Below are positions 14,871 to 16,237 of a stretch of DNA of 32,319 bases, piece after piece. The translations under genes were made by a program, and so were the position numbers. This stretch comes from an uncultured Alphaproteobacteria bacterium. Its GTDB lineage: Bacteria > Pseudomonadota > Alphaproteobacteria > RF32 > CAG-239. The notes under the pieces were generated by a model. The model made no database searches. It was not told where the DNA came from and was given only the letters and a program-made list of their open reading frames with translations. The stretch spans positions 1-32,319 of the forward strand of contig CALXTO010000015.1 of NCBI GenBank assembly GCA_944391425.1, given 5' to 3'. The first letter of the stretch is position 1; every line of letters starts with the position of its first letter.

Positions 14871-14912
14871 TATGCCTTTAAAGCATATCAATAACATAAT
14901 CGGAGAATGGCT

Positions 14913-15803
14913 ATGGAATTAAGGGTTTTGCGTTATTTTTTAGCTGTTGCGCGGGAAGGCAGCATCACCAAAGCGGCCGGCTTTTTAAATGTAACTCAAC
15001 CGACCCTCTCCCGGCAAATAAAAGAGCTGGAAGAAGAACTTGGACAACAGTTGTTTATCCGTGGCAGCCACAGCGTTTCGCTTACGGCCGAAGGAATGAT
15101 GCTCAGAAAAAGAGCCGAAGAAATTATGGACATGGTCGGCAAAACCAAAGCAGAATTCAGTTCCATTCAGGAAACGATTGCCGGCGATATATACATCGGC
15201 AGCGGTGAAACGCATGGTATGCGGCTGATTGCCGAAATCATCAAAGAACTTCGAACAGAGTATCCGGACATCCGGTATCATCTTTACAGTGGCAACGCCG
15301 AAAACGTTACCGAAAGGCTTGACAAAGGCCTGCTGGATTTCGGCGTACTTATCCAGCCTACCGATTTGGCCAAATATCATTCAATCGCCTTACCAGCCAA
15401 AGACATTTGGGGCGTCATCATGCGCAAAAACAGTCCGCTGGCGGACAAACAAACCATTGTCAAAGAAGATTTGCGCGGTTTACCGTTGATCTGCTCACAG
15501 CAGGCCATCCGCAAAAGTTCCGCTTATAATCAATTTCAACGCTGGTTCGGACGGGATTTTGACAAGCTCAACATTGTCGCCACCTATAACCTCGTTTTTA
15601 ATGCCGCTTTGCTGGCCGAACAAGATATCGGCTATGTTTTGAGTCTGGACAGGCTGATCGACGCCATGGACAATGATGTCTGTTTCCGCCCGCTCAACCC
15701 AAGATTGGAATCCGGACTGGATATTGTCTGGAAAAAATACCAGGTCTTTTCTCCGGCCGCCAAAATTTTTCTGGACAGACTGCAAAAAAAATTCATATCA
15801 TAA
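14913..15803 (+). CDS. LysR family transcriptional regulator
   Basis: A 296-aa regulator. Residues 1 to about 60 are the winged helix-turn-helix (LRVLRYFLAVAREGSITKAA, then LNVTQPTLSRQIKELEEELG), followed by a linker helix and a periplasmic-binding-protein-like effector domain (from GDIYIGSGET to about 290). Of two near ATGs, the one at 14913 has GGAG at the right distance; the ATG at 14907 is too close. It is divergent from the DUF3737-small protein-hydrolase operon, the classic arrangement for a LysR regulator and its target. The effector is unknown; companion genes suggest a small electrophile or ester, which is inference. Confidence 0.92.
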   Translation: MELRVLRYFLAVAREGSITKAAGFLNVTQPTLSRQIKELEEELGQQLFIRGSHSVSLTAEGMMLRKRAEEIMDMVGKTKAEFSSIQETIAGDIYIGSGETHGMRLIAEIIKELRTEYPDIRYHLYSGNAENVTERLDKGLLDFGVLIQPTDLAKYHSIALPAKDIWGVIMRKNSPLADKQTIVKEDLRGLPLICSQQAIRKSSAYNQFQRWFGRDFDKLNIVATYNLVFNAALLAEQDIGYVLSLDRLIDAMDNDVCFRPLNPRLESGLDIVWKKYQVFSPAAKIFLDRLQKKFIS

Positions 15804-15871
15804 TGCCGACAACAACTCTGCCGCTTCAAAGCCAAGAGTAAACCCTTTCCACTTGGTTGCCGGACTTCTGT

Positions 15872-15932
15872 AAACAAAAAAACCACCTCGAAAGATGGCC
15901 TTTTTATTGGTCGAAATGACTGGACTCGAACC
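15872..15932 (-). repeat. Direct repeat copy 1: terminator plus tRNA-Pro 3' end
   Basis: About 61 nt that repeat 16126-16185 with only a few changes, all in the terminator part. On the minus strand it reads: tRNA 3' end, spacer, hairpin CCATCT-TTCG-AGGTGG (one U-G pair), then a T-tract. It lies just after the LysR gene. The hairpin could also help terminate LysR transcription from the other side. 15804-15871 shows nothing recognisable. Confidence 0.85.
15908..15932 (-). pseudogene. tRNA-Pro 3'-end fragment (attachment-site-like remnant)
   Basis: 25 nt identical to the last 25 nt of the intact tRNA-Pro at 16161-16185, running from the T-loop GGTTC through the acceptor strand to CCA. The 5' two thirds of a tRNA are missing; unrelated repeat sequence takes their place. 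Such 3'-end duplicates are what integration at a tRNA gene leaves behind. Confidence 0.8.
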
Positions 15933-15996
15933 TCTCTTGCTTCGTAAATTTCGCGCTGCAAAATGCTGGCGCTCAATAACTGCGCTTCGGTCAAGC

Positions 15997-16048
15997 CAGA
16001 TGTAACACTCGCTTCCATTCGCTGTCGCTCATCGCTCGCCGACATCTG
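15997..16048 (-). repeat. Repeat core inside a short stem, shared with the right-edge locus
   Basis: CAGATGT (15997-16003) and ACATCTG (16042-16048) form a 7-bp stem around a GC-rich core (16007-16041) built from variants of TTCGCT and CGCTCA. A recognisably related core occurs at 32151-32183, also next to a tRNA 3'-end look-alike. No coding potential is credible here. Confidence 0.5.
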
Positions 16049-16053
16049 CTACC

Positions 16054-16101
16054 CTTATCACTGAAAAAGCTGCCATACTAGGCAGTTTTTTCAGTGATAA
16101 G
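16054..16101. repeat. Long palindrome, 21-bp arms with 6-nt loop
   Basis: The arms 16054-16074 and 16081-16101 are complementary at 20 of 21 positions around loop ATACTA. The mismatch is a G-U pair if the plus strand is transcribed, so plus-strand RNA would pair fully. A-rich and T-rich tracts inside the arms mean it could work as a bidirectional terminator, but the pairing extends well beyond a normal terminator, so it may instead be a terminal or regulatory structure of the mini-element. Confidence 0.85.
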
Positions 16102-16125
16102 CCTCTCCCGAGGTCGCTGGTTCTC

Positions 16126-16160
16126 AAACAAAAAACCACCTCAAAAGGTGGCTTTTATTT
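16126..16160 (-). terminator. Terminator of tRNA-Pro (part of direct repeat copy 2)
   Basis: Immediately downstream of the tRNA on the minus strand, CCACCT/AGGTGG (16136-16141 and 16146-16151) forms a 6-bp stem, followed by TTTTTTGTTT. Copy 1 of this terminator is at 15872-15907. Confidence 0.82.
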
Positions 16161-16237
16161 TGGTCGAAATGACTGGACTCGAACCAGCGACCTCTTCGTC
16201 CCGAACGAAGCGTTCTACCAGGCTGAACTACATTTCG
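16161..16237 (-). tRNA. tRNA-Pro(CGG)
   Basis: A complete 77-nt cloverleaf with encoded CCA. The 7-bp acceptor stem CGAAATG/CATTTCG is perfect; D-stem GTTC/GAAC; anticodon stem CTTCG/CGAAG with loop TTCGGGA, so the anticodon is CGG; T-stem GCTGG with loop TTCGAGT; discriminator A. The gene reads leftwards and ends in a terminator. Its 3' end is duplicated 253 bp downstream. A poorly defined minus-strand promoter may lie in the AT-rich 16238-16290. Confidence 0.95.

Follow-up and report, generated by a model that had tools for sequence, protein, structure and literature searches.

Downstream of the tRNA-Pro(CGG) gene in the stretch of uncultured alphaproteobacterial DNA analysed here (the window; 32,319 nucleotides, contig C15 of the 1.47 Mb, 52-contig draft genome G000) lies a small repeat unit, which we tentatively interpret as a tRNA-tail palindromic unit of the RtT kind that acts as a DNA-level attachment or recombination module, a reading to which we attach nearly even weight. 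Comparison with relatives establishes the anatomy of such units, their tRNA-specific fit and their dynamics, from which we infer a mechanism. We find this anatomy behind about 30 tRNA species, both in Alphaproteobacteria and in E. coli-like genomes, with arms fitted to the tRNA and DNA-like hairpin changes, so that what was a puzzle of a single locus becomes a class open to testing.

At the window locus a 56-nucleotide stretch, comprising 25 nucleotides of the tRNA 3' end, a spacer and a terminator, occurs at 16130-16185 and again at 15877-15932. The two copies lie 253 bp apart and are 91% identical, and their 25 tRNA bases (16161-16185 and 15908-15932) are identical throughout; an initial annotation had described this duplication, and our repeat comparison confirms it. 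That annotation had also placed a palindrome and a repeat core, but no gene, between the copies, which agrees with the features that we recover (Table 1), although it overlooked the inverted copy of the tRNA arm. No integrase gene is present in the 253 bp between the tRNA 3' copies, and a check of open reading frames found no convincing gene in the unit: the sole frame of 137 residues (15632-16045, minus strand) reads across the duplicated tRNA end and on, in antisense, through a LysR-type gene at 14907-15803. The first terminator is scored by the terminator scanner on the plus strand (16136-16151); when the minus strand is read, a T run comes after this stem. The predicted fold of the unit on the tRNA strand has a z-score of -5.9 against shuffles, and in the nearest unit, that of genome G020, the palindrome arms change in concert (CTTATCACTG.. 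versus CTTATCTCTT..), which constitutes a compensatory change.

Table 1. Features of the tRNA-Pro(CGG) locus, in the direction of the tRNA (positions in the window)
Feature	Position	Strand	Evidence
tRNA-Pro(CGG), host gene of the unit	16161..16237	-	ARAGORN; Rfam RF00005
First terminator-like hairpin (AAAAAACCACCTCAAAAGGTGGCTTTTATTTT), between tRNA and unit	16130..16160	-	sequence, repeat comparison
Inverted copy of the tRNA T-arm and variable-loop side (GAGGTCGCTGGTTC), opposite to the tRNA direction	16110..16123	+	14/14 complementary to 16181-16194
Short direct remnant GAGG, pairs with the inverted copy across a GGGA loop	16102..16105	-	sequence and predicted fold
48-bp palindrome of the T1 core	16054..16101	.	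21-nt arms, 95% complementary
Conserved T1 core motif (TGACCGAAGCG..GAGCGC..GCGCGAAA..ACGAAGCAAGAG)	15935..15995	-	recurs in units behind other tRNAs and in those of further genomes
Direct copy of the tRNA 3' end, T-arm to CCA, 25 nt identical, closes the unit	15908..15932	-	repeat comparison
Second terminator-like hairpin, copy of the first	15877..15907	-	repeat comparison

A DNA search of G000 with the interior of the window unit recovered no second copy, matching only the palindrome itself and tRNA genes, because the units at other tRNA genes of this genome have other arms and cores; the repeats were discovered only via their anatomy and via relatives. Read in the direction of the tRNA, a locus begins with the intact tRNA, as a rule followed by a terminator; next come an inverted copy of the 3' part of that same tRNA, a core, and the right half of the T-arm through to CCA, after which the units of the window's family have a second terminator. 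The core is often preceded by a short direct repeat of the left T-arm half (such as GGGTTCGA). Thus, with the left half before it and the right half after it, the core occupies the T-loop position of an incomplete tRNA copy. The inverted copy of the unit's own tRNA is present in 111 of 112 units, and in 111 of the 112, spread over 29 tRNA species, this arm fits its own tRNA better than others (mean local score 13.6 versus 8.5). Since the arms of nearly every copy match their own tRNA, a single element hopping unchanged between sites is excluded.

The cores are non-coding, contain several hairpins and fall into at least three families, which we term T1 (that of the window), T2 and T3. By eye, the T1 core occurs in both orientations within the same arms (Lys-TTT versus Pro); loci L109, L123 and L130 likewise have a T1-like core reversed inside the same tRNA arms (Lys-TTT, Val-TAC). 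For the T2 core, which we modelled as R1, changes on both sides of a pair were seen at 12 of 19 pairs in 19 sequences and at 18 of 19 in 108 distinct sequences. Its covariation score of 0.289, against 0.094 when shuffled (0 of 500 shuffles as high), collapses when the partners are slid. The consensus fold of T3 was derived from nine units and is too shallow for use. Among 112 distinct T2 units, 82 start at most 130 bp from a same-strand tRNA and another 15 are found 130-450 bp downstream of one; the remainder mostly have no tRNA within the contig piece examined.

To gauge how common such units are we applied one uniform test, which asks for a copy of the 17-nucleotide tRNA end no further than 450 bp away and differing at 3 positions at most. 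By this measure about a third of the tRNA genes bear a unit in G000 (7/24) and in a second genome of the genus, G004 (9/27), against none of 36 tRNA genes at 29 control loci of other alphaproteobacterial families. In a wider scan (at most 2 mismatches, within 450 bp downstream) the tRNA end recurs downstream at 112 of 247 tRNA loci, though these were partly chosen for carrying units and the preceding figures are the unbiased rates; an upstream copy is found at one locus. In ten shuffles per locus the tRNA end never recurs, and chance is excluded as the explanation of the copies. The 112 units stand behind 29 tRNA species, with periods mostly of 170-195 bp. This enrichment, together with the fit of the arms to their own tRNAs, supports the reading as a DNA-level module.

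Within G000, clear 3' copies are seen at Pro-CGG, Pro-GGG, Lys-TTT, Lys-CTT, Ser-CGA (two), Val-TAC and Arg-CCG, and decayed or divergent units occur at further tRNA genes. The T2 core is found in 116 of 125 genomes of the order, nearly all from one family of uncultured gut and rumen Alphaproteobacteria (e.g. 'Azospirillum sp. CAG:239'). A search with R1 of 289 alphaproteobacterial and 398 Pseudomonadota genomes recovered only two carriers outside this family, and the T2 core is therefore nearly family-specific. Short units of like layout occur outside the family at tRNA-Glu and tRNA-Arg of G311. Comparison of the window unit with phage and plasmid collections gave, among the matches listed, matches to tRNAs only; the best 'phage' match, the unannotated MT836925 (L411; named 'Bacteriophage sp.'), has a tRNA-Pro 94.5% identical to that of the window over the matched part, with an empty site behind it, and its open reading frames resemble ordinary bacterial genes, so that it is probably a bacterial scaffold.

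The tRNA-Pro(CGG) site differs across the genus: it may bear a T1 unit, a T2 unit or a remnant, or be empty, and these states are intermixed over the tree of a XerD-like protein. Among four close siblings, the site is empty in G021, G019 and G030 have the terminator and the inverted arm only, and G020 has the same plus exactly one period of 259 bp. Units are gained or lost by one whole period at a time. Near-identical tandem copies are seen at tRNA-Arg(CCT) of G002, with three units of 166-167 bp and part of a fourth; there are two units at tRNA-Thr(GGT) of G004, tRNA-Pro of G010 has two different T2 units, and G756 has six copies with a 167-bp period. The initial annotation had proposed a comparison with relatives, and this revealed both empty tRNA-Pro sites and copies elsewhere that each end in a 3' fragment of their own tRNA; a unit carried by all relatives at this place, with neither copies elsewhere nor empty sites, is clearly not what we find.

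The exact 259-bp difference, the empty site of G021 and the near-identical tandem copies support a DNA-level module, a support tempered by the fact that homologous recombination or slippage between repeats also gives whole-period changes. The units might accordingly be passive tandem duplications. Chance duplication and template switching would have produced them at tRNA 3' ends, homologous recombination would have multiplied or removed them, and they would be kept because their hairpins aid termination or for no reason at all. Such an origin would suit the perfect tandem periods, the copy difference of one period and the decayed remnants at some loci. However, the same core families recur at many tRNA genes and in many genera with arms fitted to the local tRNA, whereas independent chance duplications would not share cores; moreover, the hairpins show compensatory changes and the same layout is found in other Pseudomonadota. 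We consider passive duplication unlikely. The initial annotation also suggested the scar of a deleted island at tRNA-Pro(CGG), with which the direct copy of the tRNA 3' end would agree; this is refuted by complete units of the same kind at 29 tRNA species that change by whole periods, and we give it next to no weight.

The closest counterpart of these units is the RtT element of E. coli (rtT, rttR; Rfam RF00391), which lies behind tyrT/tyrV as 178-bp tandem units (3 repeats), each ending in the tRNA 3' end. The tyrT repeats have been known for decades and, to our knowledge, have no accepted function; a literature search on RtT and related terms found nothing specific. The RtT unit has an inverted arm (GGGGAAGGATgaGAAgCTTCGA) that fits its own tRNA (score 16 against a mean of 8.8 for others; 1 of 247 as high), a copy of the left half and a hairpin core ending in GAGTAATCC, in the same layout as the units studied here. 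RF00391 also matches units in 46 of 398 Pseudomonadota genomes; those loci that we read are at Tyr, Lys, Pro, Ser and Gln tRNAs, with inverted arms of their own tRNA, in tandem in places and sometimes inside tRNA operons. At or above the gathering score, RF00391 has no match in the window, in 16 related loci or in G000, with the E. coli control at 134-138 bits, and Rfam as a whole gave nothing convincing except tRNA in the window and those 16 loci. An alignment of the T2 and E. coli RtT cores reached z = 2.0, with 26 of 1000 shuffles as good and 294 of 1000 when the ends were kept, and R1 gives the three E. coli repeats its highest ranks in a 1.6-kb stretch, at 15-18 bits. We therefore do not take direct homology of the two cores as established, given that z = 2.0 loses significance once the ends are kept. 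Two features also set the window's family apart from E. coli RtT: the unit comes after a terminator, and a single genome has units at a considerable fraction of its tRNA genes. We file the window unit under an RtT-type architecture and not under the Rfam family RF00391. This architecture comprises a closing direct copy of the upstream tRNA's 3' end, an inverted copy from that tRNA inside the unit, and a non-coding hairpin core, with periods of about 150-260 bp and, in some cases, tandem copies.

The resemblance to RtT raises the question of whether the hairpins belong to DNA or to RNA, for which the pairing statistics are informative. RNA stems tolerate G-U pairs, and the stems of 143 tRNAs from the same loci show 1564 Watson-Crick, 132 G-T and 7 A-C cells. 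Hairpins 1 and 2 of T2, in contrast, show 1066 Watson-Crick, 4 G-T and 4 A-C cells, and 23 RtT-type units from E. coli and other Pseudomonadota show 226, 5 and 5, respectively. Rare and equally frequent G-T and A-C are what would be expected of inverted repeats kept at the DNA level; this is evidence but not proof, since hairpin 3 of T2 (26 G-T versus 13 A-C cells) and the loop of hairpin 1, which is mostly GNRA, point the other way. The lack of the G-T excess expected of RNA, the compensatory changes in the core and the terminator that separates tRNA from unit favour a DNA-level module.

Under the main alternative, the units would be small structured RNA genes: read-through transcription from the tRNA promoter would include the unit, processing would release it together with the tRNA, the hairpins would form in the RNA, and the tRNA-end copies would aid processing or mimic tRNA. 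The unit lies on the tRNA strand, as the T2 units close behind a same-strand tRNA illustrate, RF00391 is an RNA family whose E. coli member rttR is annotated as a small RNA, the units in gammaproteobacteria-type genomes may lie inside tRNA operons with no obvious terminator, and GNRA-type loops also suit this interpretation. The RNA annotation of RtT, the G-T cells of hairpin 3 and the GNRA loop weaken the DNA-level reading to that extent. Against an RNA gene, the terminator that precedes the unit makes its routine transcription less likely in the window's family, no sigma-70-like promoter was found in the window unit, and hairpins 1 and 2 are nearly free of G-T, with G-T no commoner than A-C, unlike the tRNA stems of the same loci. 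On balance an RNA gene appears rather unlikely.

Mobile elements dock at tRNA ends that bear these units. In G004 the T1 unit behind tRNA-Pro has three further repeat copies after it, spaced 1 to 5 kb apart, and in G002 a 1.9-kb insert (cassette) lies between two T2 units. Gaps between T1 repeat copies at L034 (G004:C5, 3369-11230), and the region beyond, contain cassette-like genes, namely class II tRNA-synthetase-like, TIM-barrel and GNAT genes and a restriction-modification (R-M) operon whose products are two DNA methylases, an AIPR protein and one that is PD-(D/E)XK-like. In G062 near-identical tRNA-Ser units flank both ends of a 20-kb stretch with R-M genes and a terminase-like gene; this stretch (L231, L230) also encodes a CcrB-like large serine recombinase (L231, 937-2568). 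The same element end, ..ATACCGTTG..CTAC(A/T)CCGCCATT, adjoins units of the tRNA-Ser type, without a tRNA, in L255 and L316, so that three genomes share it, one with the CcrB-like gene in its stretch. Islands with tyrosine integrases use such tRNA ends too and sit between the tRNA and the unit, e.g. at tRNA-Val of G003 (L374). The proposed module gains support from cargo between repeats and from elements that sit at the tRNA 3' end before the unit, and is weakened in that most units are without cargo.

These observations bear on the proposal, made in the initial annotation, of a non-autonomous element moved by an integrase encoded elsewhere, here taken as carriage between tRNA genes by the integrase of a prophage or island. 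The unit resembles tRNA-targeted genomic islands in its direct copy of the tRNA 3' end, and the islands of this genus use the same kind of tRNA ends, but it has neither an integrase nor any other gene inside, possesses an inverted tRNA arm and a hairpin core, and is the size of a single attachment region. Part of the proposal stands: copies do occur at other tRNA genes with the 3' fragment of each, tRNA-Pro sites are empty in relatives, the presence, absence and core type at the same tRNA change between species, and a near-identical unit lies at either end of the G062 stretch. The expected integrase with the same target did not materialize, the tyrosine recombinases of G000 being only XerC- and XerD-like. 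Moreover, one integrase would need to accept some 29 tRNA ends and re-fit both arms each time, the L374 island has other arm repeats (TAGCTAACA), and the T2 start motif is present in none of the IMG/VR viral contigs. We therefore regard movement by such an integrase as decidedly improbable.

We also searched for an enzyme that might act on the units. G000 and G004 each encode two PF00589 proteins, nearest to XerC and XerD, slightly below the curated cut-offs of both models. The integron integrase models score far below cut-off in both genomes, and Y1_Tnp (PF01797) has zero matches in either, although it occurs in 8 of 35 genomes of the genus. No dedicated recombinase thus accompanies the units in these two genomes, which weakens the DNA-level reading. 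REP sequences mobilised by RAYT transposases are likewise non-coding palindromes repeated in a genome, but the present units stand behind tRNA genes with tRNA copies, and G000 and G004 have no Y1_Tnp gene. Integron attC sites offer a parallel in that the imperfect palindrome of the units could fold single-stranded with unpaired parts, and in that repeats are separated by cargo genes, as in cassette arrays, at one site each in G004 and G002. The ends of attC are defined by R'' and R' heptamer boxes (PMC2727003), whereas those of the units are, by inspection, tRNA sequence with no R'/R'' boxes; most units are also without a gene, and the integron integrase is absent from G000 and G004.

If the units are DNA-level modules, the direct tRNA-end repeats would let whole periods come and go while the tRNA itself stays intact, and the hairpin core with the imperfect palindrome would be the recognised or folding part. 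Every unit would add a further tRNA-end copy as a docking site for integrating elements, which bears on why tRNA genes draw mobile elements: each unit would offer another site with the tRNA spared. A site-specific recombinase may act on the folded strand, the candidates being XerC/XerD or an integrase supplied by visiting elements, and docking may be selected rather than incidental. More speculatively, tRNA-tail palindromes, RtT included, might be the DNA sites of an as yet unrecognised recombination system, integron-like or dependent on Xer, by which arrays are tied to tRNA genes, its substrate being the folded tRNA-derived hairpin, with whole units and cargo added at the tRNA end, the tRNA left intact and RtT RNA arising as a by-product and not as the function. 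We put this generalization forward with considerable doubt.

Further repeats and elements were seen beside the units. At contig ends of G020, G021, G019 and G030 (L038-L041), T1 cores are followed by a conserved sequence, CCGGGTTCTTCG.GCATAGCC, not obviously a tRNA end itself; it seems to be a repeat of another kind that breaks assemblies. In L366 a T3 core lies in the T-loop of a displaced tRNA-Val fragment beside an 8-kb island, and the counterpart in L369 is uninterrupted. Finally, in L010, L022 and L024 (G002, G011 and G006, respectively) a conserved end, CAT..GACAGCTAGGA..TCCTAGCTTTTTTGTT.TCTAA, stands directly behind the tRNA-Pro 3' end and represents a further element.
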